From Thiobacillus denitrificans (GTDB taxonomy: Bacteria > Pseudomonadota > Gammaproteobacteria > Burkholderiales > Thiobacillaceae), in contig DYIY01000006.1 in the NCBI GenBank assembly GCA_020723405.1, positions 62,001 through 126,000 on the forward strand: a stretch of 64,000 nt of DNA. The letters run 5' to 3'. This document shows, piece by piece, positions 14,751 through 54,501 of this stretch. The position numbers and the translations under genes were made by a program. Each line of letters opens with the position of its first letter. Position 1 is the first letter of the stretch. The notes beneath the pieces were generated by a model. The model made no database searches. It worked only from the letters and a program-made list of their open reading frames with translations, and was not told the origin of the DNA.

Positions 14751-17291
14751 ATGAAGCTGAAGACCCGCATCTGGCTGCTCCTGGGCGCCCTGCTCAGCGT
14801 GGTGCTGGCCGTGGATCTCGTCTACAGCTATCGCAAGCTGGAGGCGGAAACCCGGCATGAACTGGAGTACGACGCCAAGACCGTGTACGGCTTCATGATG
14901 GCCACCCGGCGCATCTACCAACAGCAGTTCATCGCCAGCGGACTGCCGGTCAACGATGCCACCATCGGCTTCCTGCCGGCCCATTCCTTCTCGCGCATAT
15001 CCCGGGATTTCGCCAACTGGAACCAGAGCGGCATCATTTTCAACAACGTCTCCGACCAGCCGCGCAACCCGGGCAACCAGGCGGATCGCTTCGAACTGGA
15101 GGCCATGGCCTGGTTTCGCGCCAACCCCCAGGCCACTGAACTGCTGCGCGACATCGTCACGGTGGAGGGCAAGGGCTATCTGTTGTTCACCGCCCCCATC
15201 CGCATCGAGCCCTTCTGCCTGAAGTGCCATGGCCGGCAGGCCAACGCGCCGCCCAGCATCCAGGCCCGCTACGCCACGGCCTACGATTACCAGGTCGGGC
15301 AGTTGCGCGGCGTGGTGAGCATCCGCATTCCCACGGCCAAATTCCAGGAACGGGTGCTGCGCCTGTGGACCGGCACCCTGATCAAGAATCTGGTGGGTTA
15401 TGCCACCCTGTTCCTGGCCCTGGGTTTCATCCTGGACCGGCTGGTGCTGGGCCGCCTGTCACGCTTGGGGGAGGGCGCCCGGCGGCTGGCCCGAGGTGAC
15501 TATGGGGCGCGCATCGCCGCACCGGGCAGCGACGAAATCGCCGGTCTGGCCGCCACCTTCAACCGCATGGCCGACGAGGTGCAGAGCCGGGACCAGGCCC
15601 TGGGCAAGTTGTCCCAGGCGGTGGAGCAGAGTCCGGCCAACATTGTCATCACCGATCTGAAGGGCCGCATCGAATACGTCAACACCGCCTTCGTGCACAC
15701 CACCGGCTATGCCCGGGAAGAGGCCCTGGGCGCCACCCCCGCCCTCCTCAAATCGGGCCGGACCCCGGTGGAGACTTACCGGGAACTCTGGTCCACCCTG
15801 GGCCGTGGGCAGGCGTGGGAGGGGGAATTCATCAACCGCCGCAAGGACGGCAGCGAGTACGTGGAGTCGGCCATCGTCGCCCCGGTGCGCGACGCCTATG
15901 GCCAGATTACCCACTACCTGGCGGTCAAGCAGGACATCACCGAAAAGAAACGCGCCGAAGCGGCCATCCACAACCTGGCCTATTTCGACCCCCTCACCGG
16001 TCTGCCCAACCGGCGCTTGCTCCTGGACCGGCTGGAACAGGCCCTTCTGTCGGGCAAGCGGGGCCAGTCATACGGGGCCCTGCTCAACCTGGACCTGGAC
16101 AACTTCAAGGTGCTCAACGACACCCGGGGCCACGAGGCCGGCGACCGGCTGCTGGCCGAGGTGGCCCGCCGCCTGGTGGAATGCGTGCGGGAGGAGGACA
16201 CGGTGGCCCGGCCCGGGGGTGACGAGTTCCTGGTGATACTGGAAAACCTGGGCCGGGATGAGGCGGAAGCTGCCCGTGTGGCCGAACTGGTGGCTGAAAA
16301 GATCCACCAGGCCCTGGCCCGGCCCTACCGGCTCACCGGCCTTGAAGAGGCCCACGAAGCCACGGCCAGCATCGGCATCACCCTGTTCCAGGGCGGGCAA
16401 CCGGCTGGCGACATCCTCCTCAAGCAGGCCGATGTGGCCCTCTATCAGGCCAAGGATGGCGGCCGCAACCTCATCCGCTTCTTCAACCAGGCCATGCAGA
16501 ACGCCATCGACACCCGGGCCGAGATGGAGAATGCCCTGCGCCAGGCCCTGGCCCGCCAGGAACTGTGCCTGCACTACCAGCCCCAGGTGGATGATGCCGG
16601 CCGGGTCCTCGGCGCCGAGGCGCTGCTGCGCTGGCCCCGGGCCGGCGGTATGGAATCGCCGGCCCGCTTCATACCCCTGGCCGAGGAATCGGACCTGATT
16701 CTGGCCATCGGCGAGTGGGTGGTGCGCACTGCCTGCGATCAACTCAAGGCCTGGTCGGAATCGGAATTGACCCGGGATCTGCGCCTGGCCATCAACGTGA
16801 GTGCCCGCCAGTTCCACCAGGACAGCTTCGTGGGACAGATCGCCGCCTGCCTGGCCCGCAGCGGCATCAACCCCTCGCGCCTGAAGCTGGAACTCACCGA
16901 AAGCGTGGTGCTGGACAACGTGGAGGACGTGATCCGCCGCATGCACGAACTGCGTGCCCTGGGGGTGAGCTTCTCTCTGGACGACTTCGGCACCGGCTAC
17001 TCCTCCCTGGCCTATCTGAAGCGCTTGCCCCTGGACCAGATCAAGATCGACCAGTCCTTCGTCCGGGATCTCGGCAGCGACGCCAACGATGCGGCCATCG
17101 TCCGGGCCATCCTGGCCATGAGCCGTTCCTTGGGACTGGAAGTGATCGCCGAAGGCGTGGAAACCCCGGAGCAGCACGATTACCTGCGTGCCTGCGGCTG
17201 TCTGGCCTACCAGGGCTATCTGTTCGGCAAGCCCATGCCCATCGGTGCATGGGCCGACTGGCTGGCGGCACGGACCCGGCCTGGTGGCTGA
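14751..17291 (+). CDS. Membrane GGDEF-EAL protein with heme-c-type periplasmic sensor
   Basis: An 846-residue c-di-GMP enzyme. Layout: membrane helix near 5-25; periplasmic Tll0287-like/DUF3365 sensor at about 30-200 with a CLKCH heme-c motif (C156-H160); second membrane helix near 210-235; HAMP; PAS domain near 290-400; GGDEF domain with an intact GGDEF at about 490 and an inhibitory-site RxxD (REED) five residues before it; EAL domain from about 590 with AEALLRW, and DDFGTGYSSL later. Both catalytic domains look competent. The CxxCH suggests a covalent heme and redox or gas sensing. It follows the chemoreceptor gene by 54 bp and may share its transcript. Confidence 0.9.
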   Translation: MKLKTRIWLLLGALLSVVLAVDLVYSYRKLEAETRHELEYDAKTVYGFMMATRRIYQQQFIASGLPVNDATIGFLPAHSFSRISRDFANWNQSGIIFNNVSDQPRNPGNQADRFELEAMAWFRANPQATELLRDIVTVEGKGYLLFTAPIRIEPFCLKCHGRQANAPPSIQARYATAYDYQVGQLRGVVSIRIPTAKFQERVLRLWTGTLIKNLVGYATLFLALGFILDRLVLGRLSRLGEGARRLARGDYGARIAAPGSDEIAGLAATFNRMADEVQSRDQALGKLSQAVEQSPANIVITDLKGRIEYVNTAFVHTTGYAREEALGATPALLKSGRTPVETYRELWSTLGRGQAWEGEFINRRKDGSEYVESAIVAPVRDAYGQITHYLAVKQDITEKKRAEAAIHNLAYFDPLTGLPNRRLLLDRLEQALLSGKRGQSYGALLNLDLDNFKVLNDTRGHEAGDRLLAEVARRLVECVREEDTVARPGGDEFLVILENLGRDEAEAARVAELVAEKIHQALARPYRLTGLEEAHEATASIGITLFQGGQPAGDILLKQADVALYQAKDGGRNLIRFFNQAMQNAIDTRAEMENALRQALARQELCLHYQPQVDDAGRVLGAEALLRWPRAGGMESPARFIPLAEESDLILAIGEWVVRTACDQLKAWSESELTRDLRLAINVSARQFHQDSFVGQIAACLARSGINPSRLKLELTESVVLDNVEDVIRRMHELRALGVSFSLDDFGTGYSSLAYLKRLPLDQIKIDQSFVRDLGSDANDAAIVRAILAMSRSLGLEVIAEGVETPEQHDYLRACGCLAYQGYLFGKPMPIGAWADWLAARTRPGG

Positions 17292-44648: not shown

Positions 44649-47297
44649 CTACCCCGCCAGCCGCTGGCGCAACCATTCCCCGCATTCCCCCGCCGGCATG
44701 GGCTTGGCGAAGTGGAAGCCCTGGAAGACGTGCACGCCCAACCCGGCCAGTAGGGCGGCGGTGTCTTCGTTTTCCACCCCTTCGGCCACGATGGTCAGGC
44801 GCAGGGCCTGGGCCATGGCGACGATGGCCTGGATGAGGCGCAGGCCCTGGGGGTCGGCGGCCCGGCGCACGAAGGAGATGTCGATCTTCAGTTCGTCCAC
44901 GGGCATTTCGTGGAGTTGGGAGAGGGAGGAATAGCCCACGCCGAAGTCGTCCACGGCCAGTTTGAAGCCGGCCTCGTGGAGGTCCCGCAGGCGGACTTCC
45001 GCGTAGTCCACTTCGGACATGGCCAGGCTCTCCGTCACTTCCAGCATGAGCCGGCCCGGGTCCACACCGGCGTTGCTGGATTCCAACAGCAGCCGTTCCA
45101 TGCAGTTGGCCATGAACAGTTGCCGCTTGGAGATGTTCACTGCGAACAACAGGTCGTGGCCCTCGTCCAGCAGGCTGCGGGCGAAGCCCAGGGTGGCGGC
45201 GATGACCCGATCGCCCAGTTCGGCGATGAGGCCCAGGTTCTCAGCCATGGGGATGAAGGTGGCCGGGGAGACCCAGCCCAGGTCCGGGTCGTGCCAGCGG
45301 GCCAGGGCTTCCACCCCTCTGGGCTGGCCGGTGGCGGCATCCACCAGGGGCTGGAACCAGGTCTCGATGGCGCCAGCGGCGATGGCCGCCGCCAGCCGGC
45401 CCTGGATGTACAACTCCTTCTTGCCCAGGCCCTTGCGCGTCATGTCGGAGAAAAACTGGACCATGTTCCGCCCCTGGGACTTGGCGTAGAACATGGCCCG
45501 GTCCGCCTGGGAGAGCAGCACGTCCACGTCCCGGCCGTCATCGGGAAAGACGGTGAAACCCATGCTGAAGGTCACCGGCAGGCTGTGGCTTTCGATCTGT
45601 ACGGCTTCACGGCTGACGCGGGCCAGCTTGTCTCCCACCCGGCGGATGTCCTCCAGGTCGTGCATGTCAGGCAGCATGACCACGAACTCGTCGCCGCCCC
45701 AGCGGGCCAGGGTGTCGCCATTGCGCAGGGCTTGTTGCAGGTTGTCGGCGAAGGCCTTGAGCAACTGGTCGCCGGCCTTGTGGCCAAGGGCATCGTTGAT
45801 GTTCTTGAAGTGATCCAGGTCGATGAAGCCCACCCCCACCCGGCTGTGGCTGCGTCCCGCCAGGCGCAGGGCCACCTTGAGCCGGTCTTCCAGCAATACC
45901 CGGTTGGGCAGGCCGGTAAGGGCGTCATGCAGGGCCATGTGGGTGATGTGTTTTTCCTGGAGATAGGTCTGGGTGATGTCGCGCAGCACGCCGCGCACCC
46001 GGGTGGGCGGCTTGTCCACCGGCACGAAGCGGCATTCCATCCAGGCGCCGCTGCGCTGGGGGGCCGCCAGGCGCAGGCGCAGGTTGACCAGTTCCTTTTC
46101 GCCGCTGAACAGCTTGGCCAGTTGCCGGCGCAGGTTTTCGCCGTCGTCGGGATCGAAGCATTCCGTCAGGTACGCGCTGTCCAGACCCACGATGCCCTGC
46201 CAGGCGGGCGAAGCCCGGAGCAGGCGGCCTGTGCCGTCCAGTTCCACCACGGCCTCTTCGAGCATTTCCAGGGTCTGGAGATAGGCCCGTGATTCTTCCT
46301 CCCGGGCCTGGCTGGAATGCATGAGTTCCCGCAGACGGGATTGAAGGGTGCCGATCTCGTCGTCACCGGATCCCCCCCGTTCCAGGGCGCTCCGGGTTTC
46401 GTCGTCGAGCACGTGGCCTCTGCAGAACAGGTCTGCGGCCAGGGAGAGGGTGCGCACGCGGCGCACCAGACGGCGCAGCCAACGGCCGAAGACCACCAGG
46501 AGTGCCAGTCCCAGCAAGGCGCTGAGGAGGGTGCCGGCCAGGGCGAATTGCCAGGGTGAGAGGGCCTGGGGCAGGGCCTGCCAGATGTGCAGCAGGATGC
46601 CGGGTTCATGGAGGGCCAGGGTCTGGTGGGTCTGGCCCGGAACGTCCAGGCCGGCCAGTTGGACGGGCTGTCCCAGGTCGGCGGTACCCCGGCTGCTGGC
46701 GAAGATTTTTTCATCGACGGCCAGGGCCAGCCGGATGCCCGGGCCTGCCAGGTCGGCCATCAGCCGGTTGTCGATGACCTTGAGCAGGAACAGGCGTCCC
46801 TGGCCCCCATCCGGGCCCAGCCAGACGGGCGTCTCCAGGATTCTGTGGGTGTGGCGATAGCGGGTGCTGGTATACCAACCTGCCTGGATGGTGTTTGCGC
46901 CGCCTTCCAGTTCCTGGGCTTCTTCGCCGTGGAAGAACACCGGCTTCCCCCGGTTGTCCGCCACGATCAGGGTGTCGAACAGGAAGTTCTCTCCCAAGGC
47001 GTTGATGTAGGCCCGCAGGTGATCCCAGCGGGCCGGGCCGGCGGATTCGAGCATGCGGGTGTAGCCGATCTGGGTGGCCAGGGCATCCGCTTCCCGTTGC
47101 CATTCGGCCAAGCGGTGGCCCAGTCGGGATTGCAGCGCAGCCAGTCCGGTCTGGGACTGTTCCCTCTGGAAGGTGTCGTTCAGGCTGAACCAGGCCAGGC
47201 CGAGCATCAGGGTGGACAGGCCGCCGATGGCGGCAAACACCGCGACGAACCGCCAGGCGGCCTGGCGGGCGAGACGGTTGAATGCCACGCTGCCCAT
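44649..47297 (-). CDS. Membrane GGDEF-EAL c-di-GMP enzyme with periplasmic sensor
   Basis: An 882-residue protein. Membrane helix near 15-35; periplasmic sensor of about 210 residues (SLNDTFQREQSQTGLAALQSRL start, CHASE4-like pattern); second helix near 250-272; HAMP-like region; PAS-type domain near 350-450; GGDEF domain with intact WGGDEF; EAL domain with GVEALARW and DDFGVGYSSL. Both catalytic motifs look intact. It starts four bases after the stop of the periplasmic binding protein gene, so the two are co-translated. It converges on the aminopeptidase gene. Confidence 0.9.
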   Translation of the reverse strand: MGSVAFNRLARQAAWRFVAVFAAIGGLSTLMLGLAWFSLNDTFQREQSQTGLAALQSRLGHRLAEWQREADALATQIGYTRMLESAGPARWDHLRAYINALGENFLFDTLIVADNRGKPVFFHGEEAQELEGGANTIQAGWYTSTRYRHTHRILETPVWLGPDGGQGRLFLLKVIDNRLMADLAGPGIRLALAVDEKIFASSRGTADLGQPVQLAGLDVPGQTHQTLALHEPGILLHIWQALPQALSPWQFALAGTLLSALLGLALLVVFGRWLRRLVRRVRTLSLAADLFCRGHVLDDETRSALERGGSGDDEIGTLQSRLRELMHSSQAREEESRAYLQTLEMLEEAVVELDGTGRLLRASPAWQGIVGLDSAYLTECFDPDDGENLRRQLAKLFSGEKELVNLRLRLAAPQRSGAWMECRFVPVDKPPTRVRGVLRDITQTYLQEKHITHMALHDALTGLPNRVLLEDRLKVALRLAGRSHSRVGVGFIDLDHFKNINDALGHKAGDQLLKAFADNLQQALRNGDTLARWGGDEFVVMLPDMHDLEDIRRVGDKLARVSREAVQIESHSLPVTFSMGFTVFPDDGRDVDVLLSQADRAMFYAKSQGRNMVQFFSDMTRKGLGKKELYIQGRLAAAIAAGAIETWFQPLVDAATGQPRGVEALARWHDPDLGWVSPATFIPMAENLGLIAELGDRVIAATLGFARSLLDEGHDLLFAVNISKRQLFMANCMERLLLESSNAGVDPGRLMLEVTESLAMSEVDYAEVRLRDLHEAGFKLAVDDFGVGYSSLSQLHEMPVDELKIDISFVRRAADPQGLRLIQAIVAMAQALRLTIVAEGVENEDTAALLAGLGVHVFQGFHFAKPMPAGECGEWLRQRLAG

Positions 47298-47301
47298 GGG
47301 T

Positions 47302-48315
47302 TCAGGGGCTCCGGCCGGCCCAGCGGCTGTCCACCAGATCGCTGAAGCGCAGGGTTCCGGCGTTGGGGAGGTCCCGGCCCAACGCTTTGAAGAAGGCTTC
47401 GCTGTTGCGCAGACCTTCCTCGGTGAAGCTGCCATCCGGGCTGAAGATGCCCTGGTGCACGGCCAGGTACTGCTGCCAGGCCCGGGTTTCCTCGCCGTCC
47501 GGCATGCCCAGGATGGCCGTCACGTCTGCGGGGCCGTGGCTGGCCAGCCAGGCCAGGGTTTCACGCAGGGCGGTGACCAGCATGCGGGCCTTGTCCGGCT
47601 GTTCCCGGAGGAGGGTGCGGGTGGTGGCCAACTGGGTATAGATGAAGCGTCCCCCCAGGTGCCGTTTTGCCGTCTGCACGTCGTGCAAGTCGGCCAGTCG
47701 CCAGGCAATGCGCTGCTTTTCCAGGAGGGTGGCGGCCGGTTCGTTGACGACGATGGCATCCACCTGGCCCGATTTCAGGGCGGCCGCGTAGTCGGCCATG
47801 TTCTGGCCGGCATGGACGAAGTTCACCTGGTCGAGTTTGACGCCGGCGCCCGTCAAGAGATATTCCGCCATCTGCCGGGCGGTGGACTTGCCCTGCTTGC
47901 TGCCGGTATGGGTGCCGATGCGGCGGCCGCGCAGGTCGGCCACGCCGTGCACGGTCCAGTTGAGGGCCTGGCGGACCATGAGCACGTAGGCCGGCCGCTG
48001 GGTGATCACGGCAATGGACACCAGTTCCGGTTTGTCCAGATAGACATCGGCCAGGGCGGGCAGGCCCAGCCCGGCGAAATCGCTGTTGCCTTCCAGCAAA
48101 TCCTTGGCTGCCAGGGGGCCGCCACCGAAATAGCGCAGGGACAACTCGAATCCGGCCCGCCGATCGGCCCCCAGCCGATGCATGAGTTCCAGGGGCAGGT
48201 AGGGGGCCACATGGGGCCCGGGGGTGGCGATCTCGACACGCGGCGGGTCAGCCAGAGCCCATCCGGACAACCCCAGGCACAGAAGGCACAGGAGGCCCAG
48301 GAGCCTGGCGGCCAT
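47302..48315 (-). CDS. Periplasmic substrate-binding protein (NMT1/SsuA type)
   Basis: A 337-residue solute-binding protein with a signal peptide (LLGLLCLLCLGLSGWALA, cleavage near 22). The mature part has the NMT1/THI5-SsuA pattern: GGGPLAAKDLLEGNSDFAGLGLPALADV, DLRGRRIGTHTGSKQGKSTARQMAEYLL, and SGQVDAIVVNEPAATLLE. No ABC permease or ATPase gene is near. It is followed directly by a membrane GGDEF-EAL gene, suggesting a ligand sensor role. The start is uncertain: ATG 48315 gives a clean signal peptide; GTG 48333 has a better purine-rich site. Confidence 0.82.
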   Translation of the reverse strand: MAARLLGLLCLLCLGLSGWALADPPRVEIATPGPHVAPYLPLELMHRLGADRRAGFELSLRYFGGGPLAAKDLLEGNSDFAGLGLPALADVYLDKPELVSIAVITQRPAYVLMVRQALNWTVHGVADLRGRRIGTHTGSKQGKSTARQMAEYLLTGAGVKLDQVNFVHAGQNMADYAAALKSGQVDAIVVNEPAATLLEKQRIAWRLADLHDVQTAKRHLGGRFIYTQLATTRTLLREQPDKARMLVTALRETLAWLASHGPADVTAILGMPDGEETRAWQQYLAVHQGIFSPDGSFTEEGLRNSEAFFKALGRDLPNAGTLRFSDLVDSRWAGRSP

Positions 48316-48573: not shown

Positions 48574-48933
48574 TCACGGCACGCCGTAGGGTCCGATCCG
48601 CTCCAGCGGGGTCCGGTCCATGGCGGCGAAGTAATCCGCCACGTCGGCCATGTCGGCTGCGTCCAGGGTCTGCATGAGCAGGCTCATGACCGGGTGGAAG
48701 CGGTCGCCTTCCTTGAAGCGGGCCATGTTGTAGAGCAGATGGAAGTAGTCCAGGCCACCGATGGCGGGCATCTCTCCCCCACGCCGTAGCCCGTCCAGGC
48801 CATGGCAGGTGGTGCAGGGGCGGGCTTTTTCCCGGGCGGCCGGGTCCGGCGGTTCGGCCTGGGCGGGGAGGGTGATGGCGGAACAGGCGAGGGCGCCGAT
48901 GATCAGCCAGTGAATGGGCCTTGTTGTGCTCAT
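48574..48933 (-). CDS. Small class I cytochrome c
   Basis: A 119-residue periplasmic protein with a signal peptide (LIIGALACSAITLPAQA) and one heme-c site CTTCH near residue 40; the sixth-ligand Met is likely in PVMSLLMQTL. Helical pattern fits a small class I cytochrome c (ADMADVADYFAAMDRT). It carries electrons; partner unknown. The 258-bp gap to the binding-protein gene downstream holds nothing I recognise. It diverges from aroC. Confidence 0.87.
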   Translation of the reverse strand: MSTTRPIHWLIIGALACSAITLPAQAEPPDPAAREKARPCTTCHGLDGLRRGGEMPAIGGLDYFHLLYNMARFKEGDRFHPVMSLLMQTLDAADMADVADYFAAMDRTPLERIGPYGVP

Positions 48934-52828: not shown

Positions 52829-53431
52829 TCAGTCGATGCGGGTTTCCTGGGTCCGCGCCAGGCGCAGGCCGATCAGGCCCAGGCCGGCGAGCAACATGGC
52901 CCAGGTTTCCGCTTCGGGCACCGGACGGACGGCCATGACGCCCACGTAGGCGTAGGCATTGCCCGGGTACACCGCCACGTAGGCGCCGTTGCCGAAACTG
53001 AGGCCCCAGTAATTGGCCGTCCCGGGTACCGGGTCGTCGGTGTAGATGATCCGGCCGCCGTAGTCCTCGGCACCCAGGCCAAAGGGCCATTGGCTCCTGT
53101 CGGCCAGGGCTGTGGACAGATCGACGAACAGTTGTCCCAGGTCGCCGCCCATGGCGGCCGGCGGACTGCCGTCAGGGGGGGCTTCGACGCTGGGTAGCGC
53201 CCAGTCCGAGTAGCCACCCACCTTTTCCAGGTTCAGGCCGGCGACCCAGTCGATGGCGAAACCGGGAAAGCCATAGCTGGAGCCAAAGCCGATGCCGTGC
53301 AGCAGCCACATCCGCTGGGCCTCGGTATCCGTGAGGATGCCGGTGGCCGGGTCGTAGTCCAGGGCGGCCGCCGCCGGGGTGGGCAGGGCGGCGCAGATCG
53401 CCAGGGCCAGAGCATGGAGGAGGGTTTTCAT
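52829..53431 (-). CDS. PEP-CTERM sorting domain protein with variant PEA motif
   Basis: A 200-residue protein with a signal peptide (ALALAICAALPTPAAA), a body of DUF1566 type (MWLLHGIGFGSSYGF; GGYSDWALPSV; YYW-like GTANYWGLSFGNGAYVAVYPG), and a C-terminal signal reading VPEAETWAMLLAGLGLIG plus a tail with two arginines. PEA replaces the usual PEP, which may weaken exosortase recognition. It lies 26 bp after the upstream PEP-CTERM gene, so both are co-transcribed. Confidence 0.82.
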   Translation of the reverse strand: MKTLLHALALAICAALPTPAAAALDYDPATGILTDTEAQRMWLLHGIGFGSSYGFPGFAIDWVAGLNLEKVGGYSDWALPSVEAPPDGSPPAAMGGDLGQLFVDLSTALADRSQWPFGLGAEDYGGRIIYTDDPVPGTANYWGLSFGNGAYVAVYPGNAYAYVGVMAVRPVPEAETWAMLLAGLGLIGLRLARTQETRID

Positions 53432-53457: not shown

Positions 53458-54147
53458 TCAGGTGCCGCGACCCCGCAACCGCAGGGCGGTCAGTCCGAGG
53501 CCGACGAGCAACATGGCCCAGGTTTCAGGTTCGGGGACCGGGGCCAGGGTCAGGCTGACCTGGGTGCCGGGATAGGCGGATTGTTGGACGCCCAGGGATT
53601 CATCCAGCCGATAGGAAATGGTGCCGTAGAGGAGGGCGGTCTGGCCCGGGTCCAACCAACCGTCGCCATCGTCGTCGAACGCCACGTAGTGGTCATATTG
53701 GGACAGGCCGGGCAGGCCCGAGGCCGGGTACAGGGCCGTGGCCAGGTCATAGCCGTAGGCCTGGTCGGTTTCGATGGCCAACTGGAAGATGACGTTCACA
53801 TAGGCCGACGACCAGGCGTGGGGGGGCTTCACCTGGCTGAACAAATCCCCGAAGCCGTTGATGTCGATTTGCAGTCCCCCATTGGCCAGGGGGGTGACCT
53901 GGGTATCCAGATGGGCGAAGGCCAGGGCGAACAGATCTTCGTCCGCCGCCTGGGCGTTCAGGTTGCCCGGATCGACGCCGGGATCGTACTGGTCGGCGAA
54001 GACCTGCAAGGCGAGCCCACCGTTGGCGCCCACCGAGGCGTTCGTATAGCGAATCTGCCAATCCAGGTCGGCGGCAGCCTGGGCCGAGGTGGCCGTACAG
54101 GCAAGCAAGCCCAGGGGGAGCAGGGATTTGATGGCTGAGGTTCTCAT
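53458..54147 (-). CDS. PEP-CTERM sorting domain protein
   Basis: A 229-residue protein: signal peptide (LLPLGLLACTATSAQA), a beta-rich body with an EF-hand-like stretch FDDDGDGWLDPGQTALLYG that could bind calcium, and the signal VPEPETWAMLLVGLGLTA with a tail RLRGRGT. It is the first gene of the PEP-CTERM array. ATG 54147 has AAGGAG upstream. A candidate sigma-54 promoter lies about 116 bp before the start. Confidence 0.83.
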   Translation of the reverse strand: MRTSAIKSLLPLGLLACTATSAQAAADLDWQIRYTNASVGANGGLALQVFADQYDPGVDPGNLNAQAADEDLFALAFAHLDTQVTPLANGGLQIDINGFGDLFSQVKPPHAWSSAYVNVIFQLAIETDQAYGYDLATALYPASGLPGLSQYDHYVAFDDDGDGWLDPGQTALLYGTISYRLDESLGVQQSAYPGTQVSLTLAPVPEPETWAMLLVGLGLTALRLRGRGT

Positions 54148-54501
54148 GATGACTCCTTTCGAGAGTTCCCCAACCGTTGCTGGCGCTTCGTCTTGCTTTG
54201 TCTTGGACGTGGGGCGACAGCCTCGAACTTCCTGGCGCCGTTCCTGTCGCTGATTTACCACAAGCAAAAACCAGGCCCAGGATTAAGTAAAAGCCTTATC
54301 GTGATGATTGTGCAGTGGTTTTCAAGACCGCTATATCCGAGTATTTGAATCGGAAAGTAAACAAATTCGACAATGACAATCAGAAGGGTGGGTCAGGAAC
54401 GCAACGGCATGCTGCGGCAAGAGTCACTGGGCCTGGGAGCAGGACCGTAGGCTGGGCTGTGTCATAATCCCAACCTTTCATTTCCAGCAATTTCCGCGTC
54501 C
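54148..54501. other. 354-bp divergent intergenic region, PEP-CTERM array and leuC
   Basis: It holds a candidate sigma-54 site for the PEP-CTERM array (54263-54278), an AT-rich stretch (54285-54375), and, close to leuC, CATAAT as a possible -10 element. I see no leader peptide with leucine codons and no T-box or terminator that would point to attenuation of leuC. Confidence 0.45.
54263..54278 (-). promoter_or_regulatory. Candidate sigma-54 promoter for the PEP-CTERM array
   Basis: Read on the minus strand: GGGCCTG-GTTT-TTGCT. GG-N10-GC spacing is right and the -12 element TTGCT is consensus; three of the other positions of TGGCACG differ. PEP-CTERM genes in some relatives are driven by sigma-54 with the PrsK/PrsR regulators, which supports the call. 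Confidence 0.45.

Follow-up and report, generated by a model that had tools for sequence, protein, structure and literature searches.

To our knowledge, the signals of most GGDEF/EAL receptors are unknown, and we know of few c-di-GMP receptors that are driven by a separate binding protein. Receptors driven by a periplasmic binding protein (SBP) are nevertheless already known as a kind, as the available part of one account sets out (PMC9602780). The available portions of the work on NspS-MbaA of Vibrio cholerae and Sinorhizobium meliloti describe docking of the SBP on its receptor as a switch between synthesis and breakdown of c-di-GMP, with no transport involved (PMC8967002, PMC9993111, PMC8079147); the closed, receptor-bound SBP favours synthesis, and the free receptor degrades c-di-GMP (PMC8967002, PMC8079147). 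LuxQ, in the excerpt available to us, senses AI-2 through LuxP and not directly (PMC8534201). According to the accessible part of a 2022 review, SBP_bac_3 alone among the PBP-clan families has been studied in c-di-GMP networks, a statement that refers to domains within proteins (PMC8846402). In the accessible parts of the open-licence literature no account was found in which an NMT1-type SBP is the partner of a c-di-GMP receptor, and no such pair was found in the available text of a paper on c-di-GMP in Acidithiobacillus (PMC6416229).

Here we describe such a pair in a stretch of 64,000 nucleotides, the whole of which is referred to as the window. By analogy with the systems above, the two genes would encode a dedicated two-part receptor in which docking of the SBP sets c-di-GMP synthesis against breakdown. 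We give this reading a probability of about three in four; the docking, the ligand, the sign of the response and the cell behaviour under control are all inferred.

The gene pair and its neighbours

The features of the two genes are collected in Table 1. The initial annotation had placed the binding-protein gene four bases before the GGDEF-EAL gene, and this is borne out, with ACCC standing between the TGA stop of the SBP and the ATG of the receptor; a GGAG motif lies 11 bases 5' of that ATG, within the end of the SBP gene. Pfam, the predicted model and hydropathy together give the SBP an NMT1/SsuA fold and a secretion signal. Among the five Pfam and eight NCBIfam families that match it at E<=1, the best are NMT1 and SsuA_fam, respectively (SsuA_fam below its cut-off), and the PotD/spermidine family is absent. 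In the receptor, some 210 periplasmic residues lie between the two TM segments, and a motif scan found the GGDEF, RxxD and EAL catalytic motifs intact. Metabolic genes flank the pair, going by names read from translations: a group encoding pyruvate dehydrogenase, together with an aminopeptidase gene, on one side, and a small c-type cytochrome and aroC on the other. No Rfam RNA, riboswitches included, reached the gathering score anywhere in the window. Between 44300 and 49000 no promoter for the pair was found; the sole sigma-70-like site there is on the other strand, within the SBP gene.

Table 1. Features of the binding-protein and receptor genes, in window coordinates
Feature	Position	Strand	Basis
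SBP gene, SsuA/NMT1-type, 337 aa	47302-48315	-	Pfam NMT1 E 2.2e-13
SBP signal peptide (putative), ~residues 1-23	48247-48315	-	hydrophobic residues 5-23, then ALA|D
Intergenic gap, 4 bases (ACCC)	47298-47301	-	sequence read
Receptor, TM - periplasmic LuxQ-like domain - TM - PAS - GGDEF - EAL, 882 aa	44649-47297	-	Pfam + hydropathy
Receptor TM segment 1, residues 17-35	47193-47249	-	hydropathy
Tandem PDC/Cache-like sensor domain of the receptor, periplasmic, residues 36-248	46554-47192	-	predicted model
Receptor TM segment 2, ~residues 251-278	46464-46547	-	hydropathy
Receptor PAS domain, residues 346-444	45966-46262	-	PAS_4 E 9.7e-08
Receptor GGDEF domain, GGDEF motif and RxxD inhibitory site (RNGD) intact	45465-45935	-	Pfam E 4.8e-47, motif scan
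Receptor EAL domain, with EAL, EVTES, DDFGVG, KIDISFV and VAEGVE motifs	44700-45398	-	Pfam E 6.4e-64, motif scan

It had also been noted that no ABC permease or ATPase is near the pair, and this holds for the sulfonate-type class, to which the probes were confined. An NMT1-type ABC permease and ATPase from the same genome (locus L149) had no tblastn match in the 64 kb window at E<=1e-6, and both controls, L149 itself and L150, another NMT1 locus of the same genome, were matched. Genes of other ABC classes were not apparent on our reading of the open reading frames from 37 to 56 kb. The same probes were applied to 111 sequences, made up of the window, 40 loci from the same bacterial family and 70 loci from named genomes; 27 contigs are present twice in this set, and a few of the family loci have distant SBPs only. 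A permease match was obtained once, at L097, about 5 kb off and on the other strand, and ATPase matches at three loci, L096, L123 and L074. The L096 match was rejected as an ABC link, since the protein there appears to be of a tandem ABC-F type that lacks membrane parts. At L123, in an arrangement seen once, genes reading as a zinc-type ABC ATPase and permease lie directly upstream of the SBP.

These counts bear on the alternative that the SBP belongs to an ABC transporter whose genes lie elsewhere, its co-expression with the receptor being incidental, or that it takes part in both transport and signalling. Permease and ATPase genes are present at no fewer than two further NMT1 loci of the genome (L149 and L150), with which an SBP could in principle be shared, and L123 has its ABC genes beside the SBP; however, L149 and L150 each possess an SBP gene of their own, and one permease and three ATPase matches, one of them ABC-F-type, are few for 111 sequences. 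We regard the alternative as improbable. Transporter genes co-regulated with the SBP had been named in the initial annotation as evidence that would count against a sensory role; of this, what the probes covered gave no sulfonate-type genes beside the SBP in the window and a single permease match near its relatives.

Conservation of the gene pair

Some match to the SBP was found in 40 of 117 genomes of the same bacterial family. The loci used were the 35 strong matches (E < 1e-20), weaker ones, many of them in long fused or distant proteins, being excluded. Three of the 35 end at a contig edge, and the receptor follows the SBP in 30 of the 32 judgeable loci, the exceptions being G020 and G021; the pair at G006 contig 293 was judged from coordinates only. 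Some of the family SBPs are frame-broken or cut (e.g. G010, G097 and G006 contig 293). Named genomes were scanned with one SBP peptide motif taken from an alignment made up almost entirely of paired SBPs, a choice that may favour paired ones; this gave 70 loci with a related SBP, 27 of them on contigs also present in the family set, as matched by length. Two of the 70 break off immediately after the SBP; of the other 68, 65 have directly downstream a receptor that shares the periplasmic domain (41 of 42 judgeable loci among the 43 outside the family set). The adjacency of SBP and receptor in these named loci exceeds chance. The unpaired SBPs are those of L080 and L082, which correspond to G020 and G021, both near-complete genomes, and of L089. 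At L089 the GC content, about 0.65 up to the SBP, is 0.47 immediately after it, and the next gene encodes an XRE-like regulator; for these reasons foreign DNA may occupy the expected position of the receptor.

The same relationship was seen from the side of the receptor. Full-length copies of the periplasmic domain (E < 1e-50) made up the family receptor set, and weaker matches, mostly to the end formed by the second TM segment and linker, were excluded. Among 36 such domains in the 117 genomes, 30 have an SBP upstream, one has a remnant and five have none. In G020, and likewise in G021, one SBP and one receptor lack an adjacent partner, possibly a pair split within the genome, and G088 has an unpaired receptor and no SBP match. 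Since five of the 36 receptors lack an adjacent SBP and one has a remnant, some of them may act alone or be served by an SBP from elsewhere. In an even draw of 369 genomes from the class, with at most five candidates scored per genome, four receptors were found outside the genome of the window, in three genomes, and the SBP was directly upstream in all four; the module is therefore rare but tightly linked. The spacing is close as well: a codon that could start the receptor (ATG, GTG or TTG) is found no more than 30 bases from the end of the SBP gene in 60 of 66 pairs (67 table rows, one being the second fragment of a frame-broken SBP), and a four-base overlap of stop and start is common. The pair proposed from the window is thus conserved in other genomes, whether counted from named loci, family loci or receptors. 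Because it recurs in many bacteria, the binding protein is probably part of a sensor and not of a transporter.

Predicted structures and output domains

The model of receptor residues 1-345 (mean pLDDT 92.4) predicts a tandem PDC fold for the periplasmic domain. VIA ranks 1-5 for this domain are all LuxQ periplasmic domains, LuxP-bound ones included, with Z of 12.2-14.0 (best match: Z 14.0, 3.6 A over 183 residues; 12% identity to LuxQ 2hj9_C); the next row has a Z of 11.5, and the fifth LuxQ entry is tied with it. The runners-up are directly sensing tandem-Cache receptors, among them chemoreceptor domains and DctB (Z 10-11.5), and by Foldseek E-value LuxQ comes third, after a chemoreceptor model and PctD. 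At the level of sequence, Pfam gave just two matches to the window's periplasmic domain, both at chance level. The LuxQ family profile did not match that domain at E<=1 and is absent among the best 25 of 58 families for 63 members of the sensor-domain set; the Pfam matches of these members, among the same best 25 of 58, comprise HAMP in 18 of 63, one weak dCache_1 (E 0.0069) and otherwise scattered families. Sequence relatives in the PDB are weak (best E 0.098) and mostly helical or designed chains. The sensor domain is apparently undescribed so far.

Tandem-Cache domains are usually direct ligand binders. The receptor's domain might accordingly bind the ligand itself, with the SBP buffering or delivering the same ligand without docking, and both the similarity of fold to directly sensing chemoreceptor domains and DctB and the five family receptors with no adjacent SBP would fit. 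We consider this unlikely, as the top structure matches are to LuxQ, an SBP-docked receptor, and the tight two-way pairing exceeds what buffering needs.

For the SBP (model pLDDT 92.5), the best PDB match is 3qsl, an exported Bordetella protein of unknown function (Z 37.9), and the scores against SsuA, NrtA and TauA are 28.5, about 28 and 26. Enzymes with an SBP-like fold (Thi5, MqnA/MqnD and DszB) are also among the structure matches, with scores below those of SsuA and NrtA. As a common fold by itself demonstrates no function, the secreted protein could conceivably be an enzyme of the Thi5, MqnA or DszB kind whose product the receptor senses; yet the best solved match is 3qsl, followed by SsuA and NrtA ahead of the enzymes, and at family level NMT1 and, below cut-off, SsuA_fam match best, so that an enzyme seems very improbable. 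In 68 SBPs the residues L118, D186, A187, E192, P193, L207 and W256 never vary, but they point to no ligand.

We favour docking of the SBP on the receptor. The secreted SBP would capture a small molecule in the periplasm and dock on the membrane enzyme at its LuxQ-like periplasmic domain. From there the change would travel through the second TM segment and the linker to the PAS-GGDEF-EAL part and shift the balance between making and breaking c-di-GMP. The original suggestion, that the SBP presents a ligand to the periplasmic sensor and so controls c-di-GMP, finds support in the conserved pair and in a predicted domain nearest to LuxQ; the docking, the ligand and the effect on c-di-GMP are what we infer. 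The support drawn from sequence comprises the anatomy of the pair, its intact catalytic motifs, co-inheritance, the lack of an adjacent sulfonate-type transporter, and the retention of SBP and sensor across exchanges of output.

These exchanges were seen among 65 receptors (the window and 64 named loci). GGDEF and EAL lie in one frame in 36, and two more with a frame break (L088 and L122) are counted with them, making 38; two have GGDEF only, 23 have a histidine kinase and two are of undecidable class. GGDEF and RxxD are intact in all 39 receptors scanned, and a pattern scan of the 36 GGDEF-EAL proteins found EAL in 35, DDFG in 35, KxD in 33 and EGxE in 36. Three of the 23 kinases are cut; 12 of the other 20 are followed within 1.6 kb by a receiver and a GGDEF domain, in that order, and in nine of these 12 the distance is about 0.4 kb. 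At least six changes of output are needed on a quick SBP tree and seven on the sensor tree. The kinase of L100, compared with the GGDEF-EAL receptors of L098 and L111, has an SBP 87% identical and a sensor domain 67-71% identical. Distances between SBPs and between sensor domains correlate at r 0.78 (n 61; highest of 2000 permutations 0.14), partly through shared descent. Because both are kept while the output changes, in L100 against L098 and L111 and on the trees, SBP and sensor domain behave as a single input unit.

Carriers in the named scan include Thiobacillus, Sulfuricella, Sulfuritalea, Gallionella, Sideroxydans, Magnetococcales, Thiotrichales and Desulfobulbaceae, which we take to be sulfur or iron bacteria living in redox gradients; Rhodoferax, Methylibium, Hylemonella and Dechloromonas are also on this list, one carrier being Rhodoferax lacus IMCC26218 (L092). 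A broader proposal, to which we give even odds, is that an NMT1-type SBP and its own putative LuxQ-like docking domain form a portable sensing cassette, plugged into GGDEF-EAL or GGDEF-only proteins or into kinases ahead of a receiver and GGDEF, leading mostly to c-di-GMP, and that the many carriers from sulfur and iron redox gradients hint at a common diffusible signal or nutrient. With natural pairs numbering in the dozens, and a secreted protein fit for ligand screening in them, the input of a whole receptor family becomes testable, and constant input with exchanged outputs amounts to a natural experiment on receptor rewiring.

Comparison with known systems

SsuA, TauA and NrtA belong to Pfam NMT1 and share the fold of the window SBP (Z 22-29). 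They feed ABC permeases, whereas near the window SBP and its relatives a single sulfonate-type permease match was found in 111 sequences. Fused hybrids of NMT1, PAS, histidine kinase and receiver domains from the same bacterial family (L074 and L076) resemble the pair in having an NMT1 domain inside a sensor protein, but their SBP is in the same polypeptide, identity is 28-40% over partial stretches, and they had no match to the sensor-domain model at E<=1e-5.

LuxP is in a different SBP family from the window SBP. In LuxP-LuxQ of Vibrio harveyi the likeness lies in the receptor, as the predicted periplasmic fold of the window is nearest LuxQ, to which, in the excerpt available, an SBP relays the signal (PMC8534201). 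LuxQ, like the kinase-type relatives, is a membrane histidine kinase; in contrast, the output of the window receptor consists of c-di-GMP domains. In NspS-MbaA, as in the window, the SBP gene immediately precedes that of a GGDEF-EAL receptor with two TM segments, with genes that overlap or touch (gene order and topology from the accessible part of PMC9993111). It differs in that NspS is a PotD-type polyamine binder and the window SBP is NMT1/SsuA-type, and in that a PAS domain precedes GGDEF in the window receptor, whereas S. meliloti MbaA is described, in the text available, with HAMP, cyclase and PDE domains. What is new relative to NspS-MbaA and LuxP-LuxQ is a different SBP family, an apparently undescribed sensor domain and swappable outputs.

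Binding proteins without an adjacent receptor

In two Thiobacillaceae genomes, G020 (loci L042 and L188) and G021 (L039 and L187), the gene for the secreted NMT1/SsuA-type solute-binding protein (SBP) still adjoins a gene reading as aroC, and the sole full-length receptor found is unpaired and located elsewhere in the genome. The SBP and receptor of each genome may represent a split pair. At L089, the GC content falls from about 0.65 to 0.47 directly behind a receptor-less SBP, and an XRE-like regulator gene is present there; this stretch is likely foreign DNA inserted behind the SBP.

Variation in pair composition

A single receptor is preceded by two SBP genes in tandem at L083/L044, L091, and L116, as if two binding proteins could be read by one receptor. 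Genes reading as a zinc-type ABC ATPase and permease lie directly upstream of an SBP-kinase pair at L123. At L074 and L076, NMT1, PAS, histidine kinase, and receiver domains form one fused hybrid protein; some 0.9 kb further along the same strand, GGDEF and EAL domains are encoded downstream of it. A pair from Desulfobulbaceae (L148) has a receptor that carries the sensor domain, and the domain models used recognised no output domain in it.

Other genes in the source genome

The genome from which the window derives (G000) contains a second pair of SBP and GGDEF-EAL receptor (L071, contig C5), the SBP of which shares 32% identity with that of the window. On contig C34 (L153), the ORF list gives a secreted protein gene followed by putative histidine kinase and response regulator genes. 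The window itself encodes a second GGDEF-EAL protein, beside which no match to the window-type SBP family was found. A small secreted c-type cytochrome with a CTTCH motif is encoded upstream of the window SBP, on the same strand and about 260 bases away, and two further secreted proteins carry C-terminal PEP-type sorting signals, as judged by eye.

Coordinates of the features described
Location	Positions	Strand	Feature
Window	14751-17291	+	GGDEF-EAL protein (domain matches 15957-16481 and 16527-17240)
Window	48576-48932	-	Cytochrome
Window	52829-53431	-	PEP-type secreted protein
Window	53458-54267	-	PEP-type secreted protein
L071	6025-9611		Second pair
L089	7000-8937		GC drop behind the SBP
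L123	3733-5477		Putative zinc-type ABC ATPase and permease genes
L153	5635-9575		Secreted protein gene, putative kinase and regulator genes
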